The notes beneath the pieces are model-generated. The model saw only the letters and a list, made by a program, of their open reading frames with translations, made no database searches and was not told where the DNA came from. The translations under genes were made by a program, and so were the position numbers. This document shows positions 5,887 through 45,135 of a DNA stretch of 64,000 bases, one piece after another. The DNA comes from Desulfosporosinus sp. Sb-LF (GTDB lineage: Bacteria > Bacillota > Desulfitobacteriia > Desulfitobacteriales > Desulfitobacteriaceae), in the NCBI RefSeq assembly GCF_004766055.1, contig NZ_SPQR01000006.1:1-64000 (forward strand). The letters run 5' to 3'. Position 1 is the stretch's first letter, and the number at the start of each line of letters is the position of its first letter.

Positions 5887-5936
5887 AAGCAAGCCAGCTA
5901 AATTAACGAAACTAACCAAAACAAACACGTAAAAGC

Positions 5937-6146
5937 AACGATAGGGAGTAGTACTTAGGAATCCTCACTTAGAGAGGCGGCGGAAGGTGCAAGCCGTTGT
6001 AGGAGACTTGGGGAACTCACCCTGGAGCTGTGTTCAGGTTGCAATGAACACCGGTGCGAACCGTTAAGATCGTTTGAGCACTTATAAAATTGGGTGGTAC
6101 CACGGGAGCACGTCTCTCGTCCCTTTAGGGACGGGAGATTTTTTAA
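5937..6146 (+). promoter_or_regulatory. T-box leader, leucine-specific, controlling leuS
   Basis: Stem I begins at the AGGGAGTAGTA segment. The likely specifier codon is CTC at 6016-6018 (leucine) followed by A, as expected. The T-box core TGGGTGGTACCACG is at about 6091-6104. A terminator follows: TCTCTCGTCCC / GGGACGGGAGA with a TTTTTT run (about 6114-6145). By family knowledge, uncharged tRNA-Leu stabilises the antiterminator and allows leuS transcription. No clear promoter is seen in the 50 bases after rsfS. Confidence 0.93.
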
Positions 6147-21223: not shown

Positions 21224-21290
21224 ATAATACAGTATTATAACAGATAGGGGCATTTTACATAGTGACAAATTACAAATTGTAATGTAATAT
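21224..21290 (+). promoter_or_regulatory. Candidate promoter with two 15-bp palindromic operators upstream of hutP/nif
   Basis: GTGACA (21262-21267), a 17-base spacer and TAATAT (21285-21290) form a plausible sigma-A promoter. ATTACAAATTGTAAT (21269-21283) is a 7-1-7 palindrome filling the spacer. A second 7-1-7 palindrome, ATAATACAGTATTAT (21224-21238), is centred 45 bases further upstream. Such placement suggests repressor control. The regulator is not identified. Confidence 0.5.
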
Positions 21291-21352
21291 AGTCAATAAC
21301 AGTTAGTTGAGCATTTGGGTGTCAAACATCTGGTTTAGTATTCGGCAACGAA

Positions 21353-21396
21353 GCCGTCAAGATATCTTTCGATATCTGGCGGCTTTTTCTGTTTTT
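21353..21396 (+). terminator. Leader terminator upstream of the hutP-like gene
   Basis: GCCGTCaAGATATC pairs with GATATCT-GGCGGC (one bulged A) around TTTC, followed by TTTTTCTGTTTTT. It lies between the candidate promoter and the hutP-like start, so it can only act as a regulated leader terminator or end an unseen upstream transcript. Confidence 0.8.
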
Positions 21397-21417
21397 ATTT
21401 GAAAGGGAGGGGACGCT

Positions 21418-21861
21418 TTGCAAGAGCCTAAAACGGTTAGAAAAAGACGACCTTCCTTGGAACGTTCTGCAATACGTCTAGCCTTAACAGAGACAAGGGA
21501 AGATGAGGATAAGCTTAAGAAATTCCTTCTCGAAGCTTATGATATGCGAAGTGGCGTGACGGAAATAGGAGGAACCGAAACAAATCTTCAACATACTGGA
21601 AAACTAACGAATTCGGTCATGGCAACAGCCTTTAACACTGGTGTCATCCCAAAAGAGGCTCGGAAGATTCACGCATTGATACATGCGACCTTGGAAGCCA
21701 GCAACAGTGTTTTCATTCATAACAATAGTAATGCCAGTTATGTTCTGAAGATCGGTTTAACGACAGACACAGAATGGATTGCTGTAGCAATTTATGGACG
21801 TTCTTCCCTTCATCCTCTATTAGAACATGCTCGTGTAGGATTGGGATTTATGCATCTTTGA
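21418..21861 (+). CDS. hutP: HutP-family RNA-binding antiterminator
   Basis: 147 aa. It matches HutP in KIHALIHATLEASN (the HxxxH ligand histidines), TEWIAVAIYGRS and LLEHARVGLGFMHL. Bacillus HutP, a histidine- and Mg-dependent hexamer, binds NAG-rich RNA and opens a terminator in the hut operon. No hut genes are present here; instead the gene sits between two intrinsic terminators directly before nifI1. TTG start after GGGAGGGG. A role in nif or self-regulation is inferred from position. The N-terminus is basic (RKRRPSLERS). Ligand identity is unknown. Confidence 0.82.
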   Translation: MQEPKTVRKRRPSLERSAIRLALTETREDEDKLKKFLLEAYDMRSGVTEIGGTETNLQHTGKLTNSVMATAFNTGVIPKEARKIHALIHATLEASNSVFIHNNSNASYVLKIGLTTDTEWIAVAIYGRSSLHPLLEHARVGLGFMHL

Positions 21862-22103
21862 TTAGAGCAAGATTAAGAGTGTCAAGTGATTAGTGTTGTT
21901 GATTGTTTAGAGTGATAGAGTACCCAGTGGAACAGAATCTTTAAATGCGTACAATTTCATAACCGGGCACCAAATCTATGGATGATTTGGAGCGGAAAAG
22001 TGTTTTAGAGAGCCCTTAATTATAAAAAATTAAGGGCTCTCTTTGTCTTTTTCTATAGGACCATTAGACAGTAGGATATCAGCTAATTAAGGGAGGTGAT
22101 GCG
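21862..22103 (+). promoter_or_regulatory. nif leader with intrinsic terminator
   Basis: The terminator at 22007-22050 (AGAGAGCCCTTAAT / ATTAAGGGCTCTCT, then CTTTGTCTTTTT) is very strong. Upstream are a small hairpin CCAAATC/GATTTGG (21970-21990) and NAG trinucleotides spaced about 8 bases apart (GAG, AAG, TAG between 21990 and 22009), running into the terminator stem. This arrangement could be a HutP-type antitermination site before nifI1. Confidence 0.6.
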
Positions 22104-22241
22104 ATGGCGTTATATTCAAGCCCTTGTGAAAGTACAACTTTTTGGAGTGTCACTTCTCGCCATCCTTGGCTACAGGGACACTCGGCCTTCACGGCGCTTT
22201 GCCATCCTTGGCAGCGCTCTAATCTCAAACGTCCTGTTTGA
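22104..22241 (+). CDS. Possible 45-codon leader ORF with repeat-derived C-terminal half
   Basis: ATG 22104 is preceded by AAGGGAGGTGAT, one of the best ribosome sites in the window. The peptide starts MALYSSPCESTTFWSVTS; from about residue 18 it is encoded by family B modules (two HPW triplets from the CCATCCTTGG motif). Either a nif leader peptide or the 5' stub of a gene interrupted by the repeat. No homology recognised. Confidence 0.4.
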   Translation: MALYSSPCESTTFWSVTSRHPWLQGHSAFTALCHPWQRSNLKRPV

Positions 22242-22250
22242 GTCATGGCC
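22153..22250. repeat. Family B modules inside the nif leader
   Basis: Contains GCCATCCTTGGC twice (about 22159 and 22200) and the hairpin CTCAAAC-GTCCT-GTTTGAG with the following AGTCATGG, as at 4.5 kb. Its first 30 bases (22153-22182) recur exactly, inverted, at 55578-55607 inside a family A unit. Confidence 0.75.
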
Positions 22251-22288
22251 AGCGTATATTGACCCAAAATTAAAGGAGGATGAACCTA

Positions 22289-22606
22289 ATGAAAATGATT
22301 AGAGCAATTGTAAGACCTGATAAAACGGAAATCGTCGCTGAGGCCTTAGCACAAGCTGGAATGCCATCGTTGACAAAAATGCATGTCTTTGGTCGAGGTA
22401 GAACAAAGGGTATTCGGATCGGTGACGTAGTTTATGATGAATTTCCCAAGACCCTTCTTCTCTTAGTTGTTGAAGACGAAAAGTTGGACGAAGCTATTTC
22501 GGTAATTCTCGAAAGTGCCAAAACCGGAACCATGGGGGATGGCAAGGTCTTTGTAACTGAAGTGGAAGAGGCGTACACCGTGAGTAAAGGGACAAAGGGG
22601 TTGTAG
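22289..22606 (+). CDS. nifI1: NifI1, PII-like nitrogenase regulator
   Basis: 105 aa PII-family protein: MKMIRAIVRPDKTE at the N-terminus, a T-loop region around GRGRTKGIRIGDVVYDEF, and TGTMGDGKVFVTEVEEA. In archaea and anaerobes, NifI1 with NifI2 binds NifDK and inhibits nitrogenase when ammonium is available; 2-oxoglutarate relieves this. ATG 22289 is chosen (AGGAGG 9 bases upstream); ATG 22280 abuts that site. The pair lies before nifH, as in heliobacteria, not between nifH and nifD as in methanogens. Confidence 0.93.
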   Translation: MKMIRAIVRPDKTEIVAEALAQAGMPSLTKMHVFGRGRTKGIRIGDVVYDEFPKTLLLLVVEDEKLDEAISVILESAKTGTMGDGKVFVTEVEEAYTVSKGTKGL

Positions 22607-22608
22607 AA

Positions 22609-22992
22609 ATGAAGGAAATCATGACTTTAATTCGACGCCATAAGGTGCCTGAAACAAAGAAGGCTTTTGAGGACGCGGGTTTTCCGGCTCTAACCATTCA
22701 AAGTGTTGAGGGTCGTGGGAAACAGGGTGGCATAGGGGGTTGGGCAGCAGAGATTGACCCGGAATTGAATTCAGTGATGAGTGCAGATCTAGCGGATGAT
22801 ACCAAATTCAATTGGATTCCAAAGCGGTTATTAACGATTGTGGTACAGGATGACCAAGTTAAAGACGTAGTCGACGTGATTATTAAAGCCAATCAGACAG
22901 GGCACATGGGAGACGGTAAAATCTTTGTCTGTCCTTTGAAGGAGGTTATTCGCGTTCGCACTGGGGAAGTCGGTCGTGAAGCAGTCGTTTAG
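22609..22992 (+). CDS. nifI2: NifI2, PII-like nitrogenase regulator
   Basis: 127 aa. PII fold with EIMTLIRRHKVPETKKAFED, T-loop sequence VEGRGKQGGIGG, and a longer insertion (ELNSVMSADLADDTKFNWI) typical of NifI2. GHMGDGKIFVCPL is the conserved C-terminal part. It starts two bases after the nifI1 stop, so the two are translationally linked, in keeping with the heteromeric NifI1-NifI2 complex. Confidence 0.93.
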   Translation: MKEIMTLIRRHKVPETKKAFEDAGFPALTIQSVEGRGKQGGIGGWAAEIDPELNSVMSADLADDTKFNWIPKRLLTIVVQDDQVKDVVDVIIKANQTGHMGDGKIFVCPLKEVIRVRTGEVGREAVV

Positions 22993-23034: not shown

Positions 23035-23919
<885 letters not shown>

Positions 23920-23957
23920 TGTCGATTAGCGATTGAGATATGAGGGAGGACAGCGTT

Positions 23958-25391
23958 ATGAGCACAAAGGAGACAATAGATTTCCGAAAACAAGTCGTGG
24001 AAGAGGTTTTGGAGATTTATCCGGAAAAGGCCAAAAAGAATCGGAGACAACATATTGCGGTCAAAGATAGTGAGTGTGCAAGTTGCGCAGTCAAATCCAA
24101 TGCGAAAACAGTCCCTGGTATCATGACCGCACGGGGATGTGCCTACGCAGGGGCTAAAGGGGTTGTTTGGGGTCCGGTTAAGGATATCGTGCATATTTCC
24201 CATGGACCGGTCGGATGTGGCTATTATTCTTGGGGTAACCGCCGGAACTTAGCAGAAGGTGAAATCGGCGTTGACAACTTTGTACCTTTTTTATTCACCT
24301 CGGACTTCCAGGAAAGCGATATTATCTACGGTGGGGACAAAAAGCTGGAAAAAATCATCCATGAGGTCGTTGATCTTTTTCCAAATGCCAAAGGAGTTTC
24401 TGTTCTTTCGGAGTGCCCTGTCGGACTGATTGGAGATGACATTGAAAGTGTCGCTCGCCGCATGAGTGAAGAACTTGAACTTCCAGTTATCCCGGTTCGT
24501 TGTGAAGGGTTTAGGGGAATAAGCCAGTCCCTTGGCCATCATATCGCTAATGATGCTATTCGGGATCATCTTTTAGGTAAAGGCCCAGCAAGAGAAATTG
24601 GACCGTACGATATCGGAATTATCGGCGATTATAATATTGGTGGAGATGCCTGGGCCAGTAAAAAGATTCTAGAAGAAATGGGCTTGAAAGTTGTAAATAT
24701 TTGGACGGGAGACTCCACGATGGAAATGCTTCAGAACGGACATCTGGTCAAACTTAATTTGATCCACTGTTTCAGAAGTATGAATTACATTGCTAAACAC
24801 ATGGAAGAAACTTATGGAACCCCCTGGATGGAATTCAACTTCTTCGGACCGACTAAAATTAAGGAGTCAATTCTTAAAATTGCAGCCCAATTTGATGCAA
24901 GTATCATGGAAAAAGCACTAAAAGTGATCGAGAAATATGAACCACAGATGCAAAAAGTGATCGAGAAATATCGTCCACGTTTAGATAAAAAAACCGTTAT
25001 GCTTTATGTAGGAGGCCTTCGCCCGAGGCATATTGTGGGAGCTTATGAAGATTTGGGCATGGAAGTTATCGGAACGGGTTACGAATTTGCTCATAATGAG
25101 GATTACGAGAAAACCATTCCTGCATTAAAAGAGGGAACGTTGATTTATGACGATGTGACTGCTTTAGAGCTCGAAGAGTTCGTCAAGAAGCTAAAACCTG
25201 ATTTAGTGGGATCGGGGATCAAAGAGAAGTATGTCTTTGAGAAAATGGGTCTTCCCTTCCGTCAAATGCATTCTTGGGACTACTCAGGCCCTTATCACGG
25301 ATACGAAGGATTCCCTATTTTTGCCAAGGATATGGATATGGCCATAAACAGCCCGACCTGGAAATCAATCAAAGCCCCTTGGTCAAAATAA
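23958..25391 (+). CDS. nifD: Nitrogenase molybdenum-iron protein alpha chain
   Basis: 477 aa. P-cluster cysteines in [19 protein letters not shown] and [12 protein letters not shown]; the FeMo-cofactor ligands are the cysteine in [11 protein letters not shown] and the histidine in [15 protein letters not shown]. These mark a Mo-type NifD. ATG 23958 follows GGGAGGA by 7 bases; the frame extends six codons further upstream. A repeated helix, [19 protein letters not shown], sits near residues 317-335. Confidence 0.97.
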
Positions 25392-25414
25392 ATTGGGCAG
25401 AAAGGATGTCTCAT

Positions 25415-26833
25415 ATGAAAACTAGTACTAAGGCAACAAAAGATTGGCTCAATACTCTAGAATATCGCGAAAAGAATTTTGCCCGTGAAAAGCTGGTTAT
25501 CAATCCAGCCAAAGCCTGCCAACCCCTTGGGGCCTTGCTTTGTGCCTTAGGAATTGAAGGAAGTCTCCCGTTTGTTCATGGTTCACAAGGATGTGCCGCC
25601 TATTTTCGAAGTACCTTATCCCGCCATTACAGGGAACCTGTTGCAGCAGTATCGGATTCTATGACTGAGGATTCTGCGGTATTTGGAGGACAGTCTAATC
25701 TTATCGAAGGTTTAAAAAATGCTAATGCACTTTATAGCCCGAAAGTGATCGCTATGTTTACGAGCTGTATGGCTGAAGTTATTGGGGACGACATCAAGGC
25801 TTATTTAGGTAATGCAAAAGAACAAGAGGCGATTCCGAAAGATCTTCCGGTTGCCTTGGCTAACACCCCGAGCTTTAAGGGGTCTCATATAACAGGGTAT
25901 GACACGATGCTCAAAGGTCTCGTCGAGTGTTTAGCCACGGCTAGACAGGAGGATAAAATTAACGACCGACTTTATGTTGTCCCTGGTTTTGACACTTATA
26001 CCGCCAATCTTCGTGAATATAAACGACTTCTTAAAGTGATGGATACGCCTTATACCCTTTTACCTGATCAGAGTGATGTACTGGATGCTCCTAATTTGGG
26101 CACCTATGAATTATACCCTGGAGGGACATCCATTACAGAAATGAACGATGCTCTGAACGCTGCAAGTTTCTTATGCTTACAGACTTACTCAACTCCGACA
26201 ACCCGTAAATATCTGGCCAGTAAGGAAGTCCCAGTCGAATCGATTTCCATGCCCATCGGGATCGCGGGCACAGATAAATTCATTGAATCTATTGCCAAAT
26301 TCACCGGGAAAGATGTACCAGAGGAAATTACCCTTGAGCGGGGACGTTCCATCGATGCCATGACGGATTCCCATCAATATATTCATGGCAAGAAATTTGC
26401 ACTGTTTGGTGACCCGGATGTTTTGATAGGGCTCGTCTCATTTTTGCTAGAAATGGGAGGAGAACCGGTCCATATCGTTTGCACTAATTCAACCCCGTTG
26501 TTTAAGAAAGCCATGGAAAGTTTGTTAGCGTCAAGCCCTTATGGTCAGGGGTCCACACTCTATGCTGGCAAAGATCTTTGGCATCTCAGATCCCTTTTGG
26601 TTACGGACCCAGTGGATATGTTAATCGGTGATTCCCATGGTAAGTGGGCTGCACGTGACGCCAATATTCCGCTTGTCAGAGTAGGGTTCCCCATCACGGA
26701 TCGAGTGAATCTCCATCGTTATCCAATCATTGGGTACTCCGGAGTCATTAATTTAATCACTATGATCGTGAATACGTTTTTGGAGGAGAAAGACAGGACT
26801 TCTTCAGACCCATACTTTGAAATGATGCGTTAG
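25415..26833 (+). CDS. nifK: Nitrogenase molybdenum-iron protein beta chain
   Basis: 472 aa, the shorter clostridial-type NifK. P-cluster cysteines in NPAKACQPLGA, HGSQGCAAYFRS and FTSCMAEVIGDD. ATG 25415 is chosen (AAAGG 9 bases upstream), with ATG 25406 three codons earlier as an alternative. The open frame reaches back into nifD, but that part is out-of-frame nifD sequence. Forms the alpha2-beta2 catalytic component with NifD. Confidence 0.97.
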   Translation: MKTSTKATKDWLNTLEYREKNFAREKLVINPAKACQPLGALLCALGIEGSLPFVHGSQGCAAYFRSTLSRHYREPVAAVSDSMTEDSAVFGGQSNLIEGLKNANALYSPKVIAMFTSCMAEVIGDDIKAYLGNAKEQEAIPKDLPVALANTPSFKGSHITGYDTMLKGLVECLATARQEDKINDRLYVVPGFDTYTANLREYKRLLKVMDTPYTLLPDQSDVLDAPNLGTYELYPGGTSITEMNDALNAASFLCLQTYSTPTTRKYLASKEVPVESISMPIGIAGTDKFIESIAKFTGKDVPEEITLERGRSIDAMTDSHQYIHGKKFALFGDPDVLIGLVSFLLEMGGEPVHIVCTNSTPLFKKAMESLLASSPYGQGSTLYAGKDLWHLRSLLVTDPVDMLIGDSHGKWAARDANIPLVRVGFPITDRVNLHRYPIIGYSGVINLITMIVNTFLEEKDRTSSDPYFEMMR

Positions 26834-26837
26834 GCAT

Positions 26838-26981
26838 ATGAAAGAAAATAAAAGTCAAAGATGCCAAGGATATTTTGCGTCAGACAAGGAGGTGTTTTTA
26901 CCTCATAGCGGGCTATTAGGTGAACATGCCGACGCAGTAAGACACGAAATAGACTGGCATACTGACTTATTATTTTATTGA
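26838..26981 (+). CDS. Possible small ORF filling the nifK-nifE gap
   Basis: 47 codons, ATG four bases after the nifK stop and TGA at 26979-26981, directly against an ATG that could start nifE (TGAATG). Peptide begins MKENKSQRCQGYFASDKEV and is hydrophilic, ending HTDLLFY. Ribosome site is poor. No family recognised. It may be a real nif-associated micro-protein or chance. Confidence 0.35.
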   Translation: MKENKSQRCQGYFASDKEVFLPHSGLLGEHADAVRHEIDWHTDLLFY

Positions 26982-27008
26982 ATGTGCCTCAAGAACGGAG
27001 GGGTCTTT

Positions 27009-28376
27009 GTGTTCACCAATCTTACAAAACTAGATCTTAAAGACAAACAGTGCATGTCAGATGCCGGTTCGCCCAAATTATGCATGAAGGCCCTGCCCGG
27101 CGAAGGCGCAGAGCGAAGTTGCGCTTATGACGGGGCACGAGTTGTGCTCATGCCCATTACGGATGTTGCTCACCTTGTTCATGGACCGATTGCCTGTGCT
27201 GGAAACTCATGGGATAATCGAGGAGCTCGCTCCTCTGGTTCCCAGCTGTTCCGGCGGGGGCTGACCACAGACATTATGGAAAATGACGTTATTTACGGCG
27301 GGGAGAAAAAGCTGAAAGAGTCGATCTTGGAAATCGCTCTTCGACATAATCCTAAAGCAATTTTTGTCTATGCAACCTGTGTCTCTTCTTTAATAGGAGA
27401 TGACGTCGATAAGATTTGCAAAGAAGCGGAAGTAGAACTAACCATTCCGGTTATAGCCGTTAATTGCCCAGGTTTTTTGGGAGATAAAAATATTGGAAAC
27501 CGAATTGCGGGGGAAGTCTTATTTGATCGGGTCATAGGGACAGCTGAGGGGCCTAATGAGAAAATACCCCTTTCTATCAACCTCATCGGGGAGTATAACA
27601 TTGCTGGAGATATTTGGGGTGTTATACCAGACTTGAAAAACTTAGGGATCACACTTCAAACGGCTATTACTGGGGACGCCAAATTTGATGACATACGTTC
27701 AGCTCATAAGGCAAGCCTTAATGTGTTGATCTGTTCCAAAAGCCTAACTAATTTAGTCAGGAAAATGGAAATCAGCTATGGTATACCCTTTATGGAAGGT
27801 TCGTTTTATGGGATTCACGACACCTCGGAAACGTTGGTCAATATCGCTAAAGCATTGGGTGATCCTGATTTGCTGGAGAGGACTTTAGTCTATGTTCGTA
27901 AGAAGGAAGATGAAACGCGAAAGATCATCGCAGGCTATAAAACGTTACTGGAGAATAAGCAGGCCATCTTGTTTACGGGTGGGGTTAAAACTTGGTCTAT
28001 GGTTTCCACTTTGGCCGAATTAGGGATCAATATCTTAGCCGGAGGAACCCAAAACTCAACACCGGAGGACTTCCAGCGCATGAAAGAACTGATGGATCCC
28101 TCAGCCCAGATCATCGAAGATACAAGTTCGGCGGGCTTCCTAAAAATTATTGCAGAGAAAAAACCAGATCTTATCGTCGCTGGAGGAAAAACAAAATATC
28201 TTGCGCATAAGACAAGAACACCTTTTTTGGATATCAACCACGGCCGAAAACTACCTTATGCTGGATATCAGGGGATGGTGACATTTGCAGAAACCTTAAC
28301 GCGTACAGTGCTTAGTCCTGTTTGGGGGCTTTTAAAACAAGAATTTCCCCCGAAGGAGAGTGAACAAGATGACTAA
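27009..28376 (+). CDS. nifE: NifE, FeMo-cofactor assembly scaffold subunit
   Basis: 455 aa, NifD paralogue. Conserved cysteines in GAERSCAYDGAR, HGPIACAGNSWDNRG and YATCVSSLIGDD; VAGGKTKYLAHKTRTPFLD at the C-terminus. Pairs with NifN to mature the NifB cofactor precursor. GTG 27009 has GGAGGGG 5 bases upstream. ATG 26982, nine codons earlier, abuts the stop of the small upstream ORF and is the alternative. The 3' end overlaps nifN by 8 bases. Confidence 0.95.
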   Translation: MFTNLTKLDLKDKQCMSDAGSPKLCMKALPGEGAERSCAYDGARVVLMPITDVAHLVHGPIACAGNSWDNRGARSSGSQLFRRGLTTDIMENDVIYGGEKKLKESILEIALRHNPKAIFVYATCVSSLIGDDVDKICKEAEVELTIPVIAVNCPGFLGDKNIGNRIAGEVLFDRVIGTAEGPNEKIPLSINLIGEYNIAGDIWGVIPDLKNLGITLQTAITGDAKFDDIRSAHKASLNVLICSKSLTNLVRKMEISYGIPFMEGSFYGIHDTSETLVNIAKALGDPDLLERTLVYVRKKEDETRKIIAGYKTLLENKQAILFTGGVKTWSMVSTLAELGINILAGGTQNSTPEDFQRMKELMDPSAQIIEDTSSAGFLKIIAEKKPDLIVAGGKTKYLAHKTRTPFLDINHGRKLPYAGYQGMVTFAETLTRTVLSPVWGLLKQEFPPKESEQDD

Positions 28377-29682
28377 TACAAGACATTATGAGGGAAATCC
28401 TCAGAAAAATAGCCCTGCTCTAGGCGCGACCTTGGCTTACCTCGGGGTCAATGGACTTCTGGCCTTACTTCATGGTTCTCAGGGGTGTTCCTCATTCATT
28501 CGGTTACAGCTTTCAAGGCACTATAAGGAGCCGATTCCCCTTAATTCAACTGCTTTATTAGAAGACTCGGTCATTTTTGGCGGCTGGGAACATCTTAAAA
28601 AAGGAATTGCTGTGGCAGCTGACAAATATAAGCCGCAAATTATCGGAGTAATGAGTACGGGTTTAACCGAAACCTTTGGAGATGACATGGTGAGCGCACT
28701 GTCTAGCCTACGCTCAGAAAGACCGGATTTAGATGATCTGCCGGTTGTCCTTGCAAGTACGCCAGACTATATCGGGTCTATGCAAGAAGGTTATCAGCGG
28801 ACGGTAGAGGCTCTAATTACCACGTTGGCAGAACATCCAACTAAGACCTCTGAACAACCCGTCTCAAACTCTGGCGCTTACTCTATCGAAGATCATGATC
28901 TGACCATCGCGTTATTGCCTGGTTGTCATTTGACCCCAGGTGATGTAGATGAACTAAAAGAGATCATCAGGCAATTCGGATTTAGGCCCATTACCATTCC
29001 CGATCTTTCCATTTCTCTAGATGGGCATGCTGAACTGGAAGCTGCCCCGGTAGTTCAAGGAGGAACGCTACTTGAAGATTTTCGGCGTTTGGCAAACGCT
29101 AAGGCCTGCTTATCGTTTGGTCTAAGTATGGAGAAATCGGGTGAAATACTTAAGCGAACGTACGAAATTCCCCATTTTAACTTTCCTTCATTGACGGGGC
29201 TCAACGTAACAGATGCGTTTGTTTTAACGCTCGCCAAGATCTCGGGTAAGCCGATACCGGAGAAACTTCTCCGACAAAGAAGCCGATTGTTGGATACACT
29301 GGCCGATTATCACGACCAACTTGGTGGTCTGAAGATAGCCATAGCCTTGGAGATGGATCTACTGTATAGTCTGGCCTCATGCTTGGTTGAGGTAGGTTCT
29401 GAGATAATGGTCGCTTTAGCGGCATCCCAAGCAGGTATTCACAAACTATCCCTTCCGATCCCAATCGGAGTGGGGGATTTGGAAACACTCGAAGAACGAG
29501 CGGGTAAGAGTACGTTAATTATTGCTAATTCCAACGGTCGGCAAGCAGCAGGGTTACTAAAGCTCCCCCATTTAAGAGCGGGGTTGCCAGTCTTTGATCG
29601 TGCCGGTTATCCACAAAAATGCTGGATTGGTTATGAAGGTACTCAGCAATTTCTCTTTGATACCTTGAATTCAGTGAGTTAG
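28369..29682 (+). CDS. nifN: NifN, FeMo-cofactor assembly scaffold subunit
   Basis: 437 aa, NifK paralogue. HGSQGCSSFIRLQLSRHYKE matches the P-cluster region of the family, and STGLTETFGDD replaces the NifK SCMAEVIGDD, having lost that cysteine as in NifN. ATG 28369 has GGAG about 10 bases upstream and overlaps nifE by 8 bases, so the subunits are coupled. No NifB or NifX fusion is attached. Confidence 0.94.
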   Translation: MTNTRHYEGNPQKNSPALGATLAYLGVNGLLALLHGSQGCSSFIRLQLSRHYKEPIPLNSTALLEDSVIFGGWEHLKKGIAVAADKYKPQIIGVMSTGLTETFGDDMVSALSSLRSERPDLDDLPVVLASTPDYIGSMQEGYQRTVEALITTLAEHPTKTSEQPVSNSGAYSIEDHDLTIALLPGCHLTPGDVDELKEIIRQFGFRPITIPDLSISLDGHAELEAAPVVQGGTLLEDFRRLANAKACLSFGLSMEKSGEILKRTYEIPHFNFPSLTGLNVTDAFVLTLAKISGKPIPEKLLRQRSRLLDTLADYHDQLGGLKIAIALEMDLLYSLASCLVEVGSEIMVALAASQAGIHKLSLPIPIGVGDLETLEERAGKSTLIIANSNGRQAAGLLKLPHLRAGLPVFDRAGYPQKCWIGYEGTQQFLFDTLNSVS

Positions 29683-29731
29683 GGCGATGTAGATATCTAG
29701 AGATAGTCTTAAATTGAAGGAGGATTCAGGG

Positions 29732-30106
29732 ATGCTTGTAGCTTTTGCCTGTAGTGACGGATCAACCATCGACTCGCATTTTGCTTCTGCTCCGGCGTTT
29801 GAGATGTATAAGTTTGCAGGGGTAAAGCAAGGCATTATCCATACAACGCTTGCCGCGGAAGACCTGGATGAGTCCGTTGATAAAGTCGATGCACTGATAA
29901 CCATGCTCAAAGAGTGTGCTATCGTCTATTGTACACAGATTGGCGGACCTGCCGCAGCACGTTTAGTTCAAAGTGGAATTCATCCTATGAAAGCACCTGA
30001 AGGGACGAAGATCATCGATGAACTTAATAAACTGAATAACTTGCTGCTTTCAAAAAAATTACCCCCTTGGTTAAAAAAGAAACTAGGTGGTATAGAATTT
30101 GTTTGA
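29732..30106 (+). CDS. nifX: NifX-type cofactor-binding protein
   Basis: 124 aa dinitrogenase iron-molybdenum cofactor biosynthesis family. VAFACSDGSTIDSHFASA at the N-terminus and IVYCTQIGGPAAARLVQSGIH in the middle are typical. Carries NifB-co or VK-cluster between assembly proteins. ATG 29732 follows AGGAGG by 8 bases. The tail LLSKKLPPWLKKKLGG is lysine-rich and slightly longer than the minimal domain. Confidence 0.88.
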   Translation: MLVAFACSDGSTIDSHFASAPAFEMYKFAGVKQGIIHTTLAAEDLDESVDKVDALITMLKECAIVYCTQIGGPAAARLVQSGIHPMKAPEGTKIIDELNKLNNLLLSKKLPPWLKKKLGGIEFV

Positions 30107-30198
30107 AAAAACCTCGTTTACGAAGAGAAAGGCTAAAACGAGGGATGACCTGAGAAGACGCTTGTAAGTTGAAATTCGTTAGGGAGGAAGGCTGAAAC

Positions 30199-30468
30199 TT
30201 GAATAATGAACTAATTTACAAAACCTTTGGAGGTTTGCCTTGGACTCCGCGATATGTTGAAGCAGTCGATAGTGCCCTGTGTCTTGGATGTGGGCGATGT
30301 GTAAAATTATGTGGACAACAATGCTTAGGTCTGGAAAGTTTTGAAGATGACGAGGGGACAGAACGGCATATTGCAAAGATTGATAATAAAGCCCTATGCA
30401 TCGGTTGCCAGGCTTGTGGCAGGATCTGCGTGCGCCGCTGTTATACCTTTAAGGAAAAATCAGCTTAA
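30199..30468 (+). CDS. nif-associated 2[4Fe-4S] ferredoxin (FdxB type)
   Basis: 89 aa. Two cluster motifs, CLGCGRCVKLC (about residues 31-41) and CIGCQACGRIC (about 68-78), separated by an acidic insert (EDDEGTER) characteristic of nif ferredoxin III/FdxB. Likely electron donor for NifB or nitrogenase maturation. TTG start following AGGGAGGAAGG. Located between nifX and nifB, as in heliobacterial nif clusters. Confidence 0.9.
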   Translation: MNNELIYKTFGGLPWTPRYVEAVDSALCLGCGRCVKLCGQQCLGLESFEDDEGTERHIAKIDNKALCIGCQACGRICVRRCYTFKEKSA

Positions 30469-30542
30469 AGTTGTAGTTGATTGAACGGATAAATGAATAT
30501 AGCTTATGTTGAATTTTAAGTAAAATAATTGGAGGGGTTAAG

Positions 30543-31379
30543 ATGCATGAACATTGTATGCAAGGAATGATCAATAGTCCAAATCTAAATCTCGGACATC
30601 CCTGTTTCTCAACCTCAGGGCATGGTAAAACAGGACGGATACACTTGGCCGTGGCGCCTGGGTGTAACATATCTTGTAATTATTGTGTTCGCAAATTCGA
30701 TTGTGCCAATGAATCCCGTCCGGGAGTAACGAGTAAAGTGCAAACCTCAGTCGAGGCGCTTGAAACTGTTAAGAAGGCTAAATCATCGTCCATCGGATCA
30801 AAACTGACCGTTGTGGGAATTGCGGGTCCTGGAGAACCTTTAGCCAACAGTGCAACGTTTGAAACCTTAAGAGGGGTGAAACAACACTTTCCTGAGATGA
30901 TCCTGTGTTTAAGTACTAATGGTCTTCTCTTGCCAGAAAAAATCGAGGAATTAGTTGATATCGGGGTGTCTCATGTTACAGTTACCCTTAATACTCTCGA
31001 TGAGAAAGTGGGTGCCAAAATTTACAGTTACGTTCGTTGGGAAGGAAAAACATTGATCGGTCCTGATGCGGCAAGGATCTTGATCGATCATCAATTAGAA
31101 GGGATAAAGTTGGCTTCCAAGGCTGGAATGACGGTAAAAATCAACACGGTGCTTATTCCCGGTGTCAACGACCAGCTTTTATACAGCTTGGGTATGGAAA
31201 TTAAGAAAAGAGGTGCGCACATTCATAACATAATGCCTTTGATTCCTCAAGGAAAACTCGCTAAGAACATGGCTCCGACTAAAGACGAGTTAATAAGTTC
31301 TCGTAGTAGTCTTGGTTTAATTCTTCCTCAAATGCAACATTGTCAACAATGCCGTGCAGATGCCATTGGCTTGCTCTAA
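30543..31379 (+). CDS. nifB: NifB, radical SAM FeMo-cofactor precursor synthase
   Basis: 278 aa, the short form without a C-terminal NifX domain. N-terminal HPCFSTSGHGKTGRIHLAVA, then the radical SAM cysteines in CNISCNYC (C-x3-C-x2-C) followed by VRKFDC; a C-terminal MQHCQQCRADAIG holds further cluster ligands. Builds NifB-co from two [4Fe-4S] clusters with carbide insertion. Followed after 23 bases by nifV. Confidence 0.96.
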   Translation: MHEHCMQGMINSPNLNLGHPCFSTSGHGKTGRIHLAVAPGCNISCNYCVRKFDCANESRPGVTSKVQTSVEALETVKKAKSSSIGSKLTVVGIAGPGEPLANSATFETLRGVKQHFPEMILCLSTNGLLLPEKIEELVDIGVSHVTVTLNTLDEKVGAKIYSYVRWEGKTLIGPDAARILIDHQLEGIKLASKAGMTVKINTVLIPGVNDQLLYSLGMEIKKRGAHIHNIMPLIPQGKLAKNMAPTKDELISSRSSLGLILPQMQHCQQCRADAIGLL

Positions 31380-31402
31380 TGATAGAAAAGGAGTTATTTG
31401 AC

Positions 31403-32518
31403 ATGGAGCAACGGGTATTATTATGTGATACGACCTTAAGAGATGGTGAGCAAGCTCCTGGTGTAGCCTTCGGACTGATGGAAAAGGAAATGATCGCGAG
31501 GGCTTTGGCAGATGCAGGGATCGACGAACTGGAAGTGGGCGTCCCTGCTATGAGTGAAAGTGAAGTCTTAACAATTTCTCAGTTAGTCGCCTTACATTTA
31601 CCAGTTCGTCTCATTACTTGGAATCGTGCCGTTCTTTCGGATCTCCAGGCTAGTTACCGAACAGGGATCGAGGGAGTCGCCATCTCCATTCCTACCTCGG
31701 ATCAACAAATTAACCATAAACTGAAAAAAGATCGAACCTGGGTACTTGATCAAATGGGACAATGTATCCTTGATGCTAAGAAAGAAGTAGGCTATATTGT
31801 ACTCGGCTTGGAAGATGCCAGTAGAGCAGATTTTCGGTTTCTCACTGAGATAATCTTGGAAGCTCAAAAGTTAGGGGTTGATCGAATGCGTTTTGCCGAT
31901 ACTGTCGGAATTCTTGAACCTCTGAAAGTATTTTTTACTCTGCAGGACATAGTGGGTATATCCAATATTCCTTTGGAATTTCATGCTCATAATGATCTGG
32001 GAATGGCAACGGCTAATTCTCTTGCTGCTGTTCAAGCCGGTTTTAAAGCCTTAAGTGTCACGGTAGGCGGGATAGGAGAAAGGGCAGGTAATGCTTCGCT
32101 CGAAGAGGTGGCAGTTGCGCTGAAATATACTCTTAATAAGACGATGCGACTAGACTTGAAACGTTTAAACTCAATGGGCTTAATGGTAAGCTTAGCAACG
32201 GATCGTAAAATACCTCGTGCAAAACCAATCATTGGTGGAGACGTCTTTACCCATACTTCCTCGATTCACATCGATGGAATACAGAAGGACTTCGCGAATT
32301 ACCAAAGCTATCCACCCGAAAGCGTAGGAAGGCAGCACTCAACCTCCTTTGGTAAATACTCCGGTCGTAAGACCATCTTGCGGCTTTTGAAATCAAGGGG
32401 CGTTGAATTTGACCAAGACACGATCGATAAACTTCTAATAAAAATACTCCATCAAACTCATCTGCTCCAAAGGCCTATGAACGAAGAAGATATCCTTAGA
32501 ATCGTAGTAAACGCATGA
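31403..32518 (+). CDS. nifV: Homocitrate synthase NifV
   Basis: 371 aa, DRE-TIM metallolyase: LCDTTLRDGEQAPGVAF at the N-terminus, LEFHAHNDLGMATAN with the metal-binding HxH, and GGIGERAGNASLEEVAV. Makes homocitrate, the organic ligand of FeMo-co. ATG 31403 follows AGGAG; the frame also reads back into the end of nifB. A strong terminator ends the nif operon after this gene. Closely related to isopropylmalate and citramalate synthases, but context decides for NifV. Confidence 0.94.
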   Translation: MEQRVLLCDTTLRDGEQAPGVAFGLMEKEMIARALADAGIDELEVGVPAMSESEVLTISQLVALHLPVRLITWNRAVLSDLQASYRTGIEGVAISIPTSDQQINHKLKKDRTWVLDQMGQCILDAKKEVGYIVLGLEDASRADFRFLTEIILEAQKLGVDRMRFADTVGILEPLKVFFTLQDIVGISNIPLEFHAHNDLGMATANSLAAVQAGFKALSVTVGGIGERAGNASLEEVAVALKYTLNKTMRLDLKRLNSMGLMVSLATDRKIPRAKPIIGGDVFTHTSSIHIDGIQKDFANYQSYPPESVGRQHSTSFGKYSGRKTILRLLKSRGVEFDQDTIDKLLIKILHQTHLLQRPMNEEDILRIVVNA

Positions 32519-36567: not shown

Positions 36568-37387
36568 GGGACTTGTGTGACATAGCGCTCGGTGCTTACG
36601 ACGCAGAGCAAACTAACCGTTCAAACGTCTGGCTTTGGGGTGCGGGGTGCCCGCCAAAAGCGCCATCCTTGGCGCATTGGCGGCAGTGCACGTCCTTGTG
36701 CACTGCCCCGTGTCTGGGGTCGGTCGCTTGAACGGAAGTTTGCTAGGCTGCTTACGTAAAGACGTCGCGCTCTGTCACACTGCGTCCTGGGCTTGGGTCG
36801 GGACGTGGGGGGACGAAGGACGGACGGGAGATGGACCATTCGGGTGGACGGCACATTTCATGTGCACCGTCTGCGTGCCGGTCGTGGGGTCGGTCGCTTG
36901 GACGGAAGTTTGCTAGGCTGCTTACGTAAAGACGTCGCGCTCTGTCACACTGCGTCCTGGGCTTGGGTCGGGAGGACGTGGGGGGACGAAGGACGGACGG
37001 GAGATGGACCATTTGGGTGGACGGCACATTTCATGTGCACCGTCTGCGTGCCGGTCGTGGGGTCGGTCGCTTGGACGGAAGTTTGCTAGGCTGCTTACGT
37101 AAAGACGTCGCGCTCTGTCACACTGCGTCCTGGGCTTGGGTCGGGAGGACGTGGGGGGACGAAGGACGGACGGGAGATGGACCATTTGGGTGGACGGCAC
37201 ATTTCATGAGCACCGTCTGCGTGCAAGTCGTGGTGTCAGATCGCTTGGACGGAAGTTTGCTAGGCTGCTTACGTAAAGACGTCGCGCTTTGTCACACTGC
37301 GTGCTGGGCTTGGGTCGGGGGGACGCAGGGGACAGACGGAGATGAACCATTCGGGTGGACGGCACATTTTATGTGCATCGTCTGGCG
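36568..37387. repeat. Family A array: one full unit plus three extra right halves
   Basis: The full unit runs from GGGACTTGTGTGACATAGCGC to about 36875. The right half (GGTCGGTCGCTTG...GACGGCACAT...CCGTCTGCGTGC) then repeats near 36891, 37064 and 37237, pitch 170-173 bp, with high identity. The array ends 24 bases before the hrcA promoter. Confidence 0.85.
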
Positions 37388-44480: not shown

Positions 44481-45135
44481 GGGACTTGTGTGGCATAGCG
44501 CTCAGTGCTTACGACGCAGAGCAAACTAACCGTTCAAGTGACTGGCTTTGGGGAACGGGGTTCCCGCCAGATGGGCCGTCCATGGCCCACTGGCGGCAGC
44601 GCACGTCCTGTGCGCTGCCCCGTGTCTGGGGTCGGTCGCTTGAACGGAAGTTTGCTATTCTGCTTACGTAAAGACGTCGCGCTCTGTCACACTGCGTCCC
44701 GGGGCCTGGGCCGGGAGGACGGTGGGAACGATGGAGACGGACGGGGGATGGACCGTTTGGGTGGACGGCACATTTCATGTGCACCGTCTGCGTGCAAGTC
44801 GTGGGGTCGGTCGCTTGAACGGAAGTTTGCTATTCTGCTTACGTAAAGACGTCGCGCTCTGTCACACTGCGTCCCGGGGCCTGGGCCGAGGGGACGAGGG
44901 AACGAAGAACGGGCGGGAGATGGATCGTTTGGGTGGACGGCACATTTCATGTGCACCGTCTGCGTGCAAGTCGTGGGGTCGGTCGCTTGAACGAAAGTTT
45001 GCTATTCTGCTTACGTAAAGACGTCGCGCTCTGTTATACTGCGTCCCAGGCTTGGGTCGGGGGACGGTGGGGACAGGGACGGGGATGGACCATTCGGGTG
45101 GACGGCACATTTTGTGTGCACCGTCTGCGTGAGGT
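44481..45135. repeat. Family A array: one full unit plus two extra right halves
   Basis: The full unit differs from others by paired changes: helix GGGCC/GGCCC (44573-44588) and hairpin GGCAGCGCAC-GTCCT-GTGCGCTGCC (44595-44619). The right half repeats near 44808 and 44980. All copies here have GCTATTCTGCTTACG where other loci have GCTRGGCTGCTTACG, so the copies within this locus were homogenised. Confidence 0.85.

Follow-up and report, generated by a model that had tools for sequence, protein, structure and literature searches.

A HutP-family protein, an NAG-terminator element and an ANTAR-like terminator as candidate antitermination control of nitrogen fixation in Desulfitobacteriaceae

A nitrogen regulon that includes the nif operon of Desulfosporosinus sp. 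Sb-LF is likely headed by two serial antitermination gates, an ANTAR-like gate followed by a HutP-type gate, as judged from comparative sequence analysis, which points to terminator opening, and not a classical activator, as the means of control. In the window, the 64,000-nucleotide stretch of DNA that was analysed, the region in question lies on the forward strand between murJ and nifI1, which is where the nif-type hutP gene is placed in most Desulfosporosinus. A putative promoter (−35/−10 pair GTGACA-N17-TAATAT, 21262-21290), found by scanning between murJ and hutP, belongs to a pattern (T/A)GTGACA-N17-TANTAT that recurs 5′ of hutP in relatives. The first terminator (T1), the hutP gene, a variable leader in which NAG triplets are abundant (21862-21950) and the second terminator (T2) follow. 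Behind T2, a strong Shine-Dalgarno sequence (GGGAGGTGATGCGATG) precedes a short leader ORF of 45 aa (22104-22241), and both this signal and the start codon are kept after most T2 copies, where the ORF length ranges from 3 to 51 aa. The body of the ORF lies within a dispersed repeat, GCCATCCTTGGC, which together with its one-mismatch variants occurs in 15 copies between 4438 and 55601 of the window against 0.34 expected, two of them within the leader ORF (e.g. 22159-22212). The genes nifI1 (22280-22606) and nifI2 (22609-22992), both of the PII family (PF00543), are followed by nifH, D, K, E, N, X, a ferredoxin gene, nifB and nifV (23092-32518). Elsewhere in the window, a T-box leader (5929-6127, forward strand) and TwoAYGGAY RNAs (44514-44662 and 36601-36750, reverse strand) score above the Rfam thresholds. 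Scanning of the relevant intergenic regions gave no sigma-54 site. From T2 to nifI1, a promoter scan likewise turned up nothing promoter-like; a weak promoter 3′ of T2 may exist.

The HutP-family protein and its paralogs

The ORF at 21418-21861 encodes, from a TTG start, a protein of 147 aa that belongs to the HutP family and has the HutP fold. It matches PF09021 over its full length with 117.6 bits (cut-off 25, E 5.5e-34) and scores 35.6 bits with the NCBIfam HutP equivalog model, below the cut-off of 155. The best PDB match of its AlphaFold model (pLDDT 88) is HutP 1wmq (E 9e-8), the top ten matches are all HutP (E 9e-8 to 4e-6), and only HutP structures were found below E 0.001. The genome encodes three HutP paralogs, located beside hutH (L003), before aroH/aroF (L001) and before nifI1I2HDK. 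The hutH-adjoining paralog is the true HutP of the genome, and linked hut genes are absent at the nif-type gene. The earlier claim that no hut genes are present thus applies to the 64-kb window and not to the genome, where hutH has its own HutP paralog. The paralog before aroH/aroF (L001 and orthologs; G000:C1:195648) is kept throughout the family and retains none of the three ligand histidines.

In an alignment with solved HutP chains, the nif-type protein keeps the histidines at HutP positions 73, 77 and 138, which we take to be metal ligands. This bears out the earlier description of a HutP-family gene with conserved ligand histidines directly upstream of nifI1. The three residues are present in 26 of 27 nif-type proteins and in all five heliobacterial ones; the exception is the copy of G005, a genome without nifD, in which a degenerate nif-type HutP (L061) stands before amtB, with neither ligand histidines nor leader element left. 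Arg88, which presumably contacts histidine in HutP structures and is important for its binding, is replaced by I, V, L or T in 32/32 nif-type proteins and kept in 18/18 hut-type paralogs having the residue. Because Arg88 is lost, the ligand of the nif-type protein is probably not histidine. A response to some small molecule is putative, the conserved metal ligands being its basis. Furthermore, column 118 of the protein alignment (A2) is basic in the nif type (R in 26/27, K in the five heliobacterial proteins), a feature absent from the other two groups. In a tree of 65 proteins, a branch with a support of 87/80 separates the nif-type proteins, including the heliobacterial ones, from the hut type, the bootstrap being not fully settled.

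Two terminators of different type

T2 was found by a terminator scan as a stem at 22007-22042 followed by a T-rich stretch, with a folding energy of −23.4 kcal/mol; the whole feature, AGAGAGCCCTTAATT..AATTAAGGGCTCTCTTTGTCTTTTT, spans 22007-22052. Across 39 aligned copies the order is a bulged hairpin (CCGGGCACCAAATC..GATTTGGAGCGG, 21963-21995 in the window), a run of NAG triplets and the terminator. In the alignment of these elements (A1), 97.9% of the cells of the bulged hairpin are paired, with both-side changes in 5 of 11 pairs, and the T2 stem has compensatory changes in 8 of 15 pairs. For the element as a whole, 97.2% of cells pair and 13 pairs show both-side changes, compared with 5.1 ± 1.3 in shuffled alignments, none of 500 being as high; when the partner is slid by one column, pairing falls to about half. 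T2 is conserved in sequence as well as in pairing, and the bulged hairpin carries a GG bulge and an A-A mismatch. An ANTAR reading of this hairpin was rejected, as its loop varies in length and is not of the ANTAR type. The Rfam search of the region returned only chance matches, a structured leader RNA of this kind being absent from Rfam.

Three NAG triplets start at 21990, 21998 and 22006 (NAG-N5-NAG-N5-NAG, 21990-22012), the third sitting at the base of the T2 stem, so that both the terminator between hutP and nif and the spacing of about 8 bases described in the initial annotation are confirmed. Most of 40 related elements likewise have NAGs 8 and 16 bases before the terminator-foot NAG. 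In these genomes' hut leader, whose NAGs run into a terminator of its own, the corresponding distances are 7 and 14 bases, i.e. a 7-base as opposed to the 8-base spacing of the nif type. Across the variable leaders the 8-base NAG period gives z = 10.3, or 9.7 after thinning of relatives to 26 leaders, values that serve as a guide only since the leaders are still related after thinning. In the upstream leader of the window alone, the period is not significant (p about 0.07).

HutP is known to bind directly to repeats in the terminator sequence (PMC8934654). Since the NAGs reach the base of the T2 stem, the simplest account is that a bound HutP-like oligomer occludes the terminator directly. The opposite sense, in which termination would be strengthened under nitrogen plenty by this protein or some other factor in the manner of TRAP, would suit the NAG arrays, which in many copies are similar to TRAP sites, and the leader could pair with GAGAGCCC in a weak alternative fold if the 3′ half of the terminator is missing. 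However, the NAGs overlap the terminator's own 5′ foot, which is the HutP arrangement and identical to the layout at the hut paralog, and no conserved antiterminator pairing emerged from the element alignment. We therefore give termination in the TRAP-like sense little chance and favour occlusion of T2 by the HutP-like protein.

T1 (21344-21388) is of a different kind. It was missed by a simple scan due to a bulge, but the region folds strongly (−23.1) and is conserved in relatives, and a terminator before hutP, as already annotated, is real at about 21353-21388. A mini-hairpin, GGC-AACGAA-GCC (21344-21355), overlaps it and is conserved in 28 loci as GGC-AAYGRN-GCC, with A1, A2 and G4 of the hexaloop invariant in the 28 sequences. 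The published ANTAR P2 element is a 13-base AGCAANGRRGCUY motif that overlaps a terminator (PMC3369931), and the T1 hexaloop matches the ANTAR P2 consensus (A/G)GC-AANGRN-GC(C/U). The genome encodes two ANTAR proteins, one of them directly behind the glutamine synthetase gene (glnA), and its amtB has a terminator leader with AGC-AAAGAG-GCU. The assignment of T1 to the ANTAR targets is thus partial: hexaloop and ANTAR proteins are present, but a second hexaloop hairpin (P1) upstream of T1 occurs in 6 of 28 copies, with 2.5 expected, and was not found in most. A HutP-like NAG site was not found at T1.

Searching the genus for the T1 pattern plus a T-run gave many matches, compared with about six for a reversed-pattern control. 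Such matches precede hutP, an MCP-like gene and amtB. At loci without hutP in G012, G015, G023, G032 and G033, a T1-type match stands directly upstream of the HutP element, which places two attenuators in series, and the second hutP copies, before anf, are without T1. In most Desulfosporosinus genomes, a T1-type attenuator precedes the gene for this MCP-like protein (333 aa; L180, L195-L215). On these grounds we consider T1 to be probably ANTAR-controlled. Because T1 carries an ANTAR-P2-like hexaloop and T2 HutP-type NAGs, the locus seems to combine both modes of control. The initial proposal that a HutP-like protein opens the terminators for nif expression is hence supported for T2, where the conserved NAG element precedes nif, anf and amtB in two families, and not for T1; its distinction from ANTAR antitermination fails at T1.

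Distribution of the element and the nitrogen regulon

A covariance model (R1) was searched against 45 genomes of the Desulfitobacteriaceae with a threshold of at least 42 bits and gave 63 matches, with nif, anf or amtB targets in most of the family. As the training set of R1 consisted of hutP-linked copies, recovering these is circular, and independent evidence comes only from copies that are unlinked or heliobacterial. Downstream of the 63 matches lie nifI1 in 28 cases, anf clusters in 12 and amtB in 4. The sites at anf clusters hold two tandem copies each, and AnfD was checked and confirmed there. Two further matches precede an NMT1-type ABC transporter with a nifH-like gene next to it on the downstream side, two are near AnfO and one stands before nifB-nifV. 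Eight matches, in 8 genomes that are all Desulfosporosinus, precede a protein of ~506-524 aa whose similarity to sigma-70 region 4 is weak at best (L108, L109, L110, L113, L117, L118, L119, L120), several of these loci being behind a T1-T2 tandem. The remaining matches are at contig ends or before a few unassigned genes.

Outside the training set, R1 matched nif in G003, G023, G033 and G041, anf in G017 and amtB in G007, G023 and G039. Some of these copies (nif in G003 and G041, amtB in G007 and G039, anf in G017) are far from any hutP and still stand before nitrogen genes; therefore, the element defines a regulon, whose members would be served in trans. It is missing from most genomes without nifD. 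Genome G007 keeps the protein, as well as the element before amtB, yet has no nif, which indicates a role beyond nif.

No R1 match above about 31 bits was found in other families of the order. A second family of the class, probably the heliobacteria, has the element in five genomes, each with the order hutP-element-nifI1 and a nif-type hutP directly before it. Nothing was found outside the class in a sample of 398 genomes of the phylum. When genome contigs were scanned with the nif-type alignment, all relatives recovered belonged to this group, the named hosts being Desulfosporosinus species, Acididesulfobacillus acetoxydans, Paradesulfitobacterium ferrireducens, a Peptococcaceae strain and two Bacillota MAGs.

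The conserved hairpin could alternatively be a small riboswitch or the site of another protein, with the HutP-like protein a bystander or acting elsewhere. The GG bulge and the A-A mismatch are conserved beyond what mere presentation of NAGs would demand, and elements are found in trans from hutP. But the element and the nif-type HutP are found together from genome to genome, the G005 protein lost its three ligand histidines together with the element, and the NAG spacing is constrained, which makes such a site an improbable explanation in comparison with binding by the nif-type HutP. That T1 is merely the terminator of murJ and T2 that of hutP, with the nif promoter downstream, is highly improbable, for although both stand at gene ends and constitutive terminators are common, the T2 sequence is conserved and turns up ahead of nif, anf and amtB in unrelated locations, the T1 hexaloop is invariant and recurs before other nitrogen genes, and the T2-nifI1 interval is without a promoter-like site.

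Proposed mechanism and relation to known systems

We propose that transcription would start upstream of T1, where the hexaloop would compete with the terminator, and that opening of T1, putatively by an ANTAR protein, would be needed to make the nif-type HutP. Assembled into a HutP-like oligomer and holding its ligand through a metal, this protein would then bind the 8-base-spaced NAGs in the downstream leader. As the last NAG triplets form the 5′ foot of T2, binding would block the stem and let the polymerase enter nifI1I2HDKENX-fdx-nifB-nifV. Through further copies of the element, the protein would also act in trans on anf, amtB-glnK and other genes. The signal presumably reports nitrogen limitation: nif has to be on under nitrogen scarcity, and a ligand that promotes binding, like histidine in the case of HutP, would be expected to increase under that condition. 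2-Oxoglutarate would behave in this way and might be able to chelate the metal in place of histidine, which is a guess; alternatively, a signal of plenty such as glutamine might inhibit binding. We tentatively speculate, at less than even odds, that a HutP-family master regulator now responds to a metabolite of nitrogen limitation instead of histidine, perhaps 2-oxoglutarate at the same metal site, and opens the NAG terminators of nif, anf and amtB; placed in series with the ANTAR-like gate, it would form an AND logic.

In heliobacteria, the orf1 product of H. modesticaldum likely regulates nif, and Heliorestis convoluta has neither orf1 nor nifA (PMC7143216). The orf1 of Heliobacterium chlorum was put forward as a nif regulator by Enkh-Amgalan et al. 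2006, as cited there (PMC7143216). This orf1 is probably the nif-type hutP gene. Our literature search returned no paper that joins HutP with nitrogen fixation or with Desulfitobacterium, and none that gives an RNA mechanism, a relation to HutP or a wider regulon for orf1. The heliobacterial papers name only orf1 for nif control; a HutP-derived regulon would give a concrete mechanism for anaerobic Firmicutes without NifA. The defined RNA element is a candidate site for in vitro binding. The system would be a case of an RNA-binding regulator changing its ligand as well as its site spacing, and it would also provide a protein-controlled terminator switch for nitrogenase expression.

NifA/sigma-54, NrpR and GlnR serve the same target operon and purpose, but act on DNA at transcription initiation. 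ANTAR antitermination, as by EutV and NasR and in nitrogen regulons, resembles the first gate in the P2-type hexaloop overlapping T1 and in the two ANTAR proteins of the genome, and differs in that P1 was not found in most T1 copies and that T2 is without such a loop. Closest to the second gate is HutP of the Bacillus subtilis hut operon, with which it shares the protein family and fold, the three metal-ligand histidines and the NAGs running into a terminator between regulator gene and target operon. In contrast to hut, the nif-type system has nif, anf and amtB as targets, a replaced Arg88, an NAG spacing of 8 instead of 7 bases and an additional conserved bulged hairpin.
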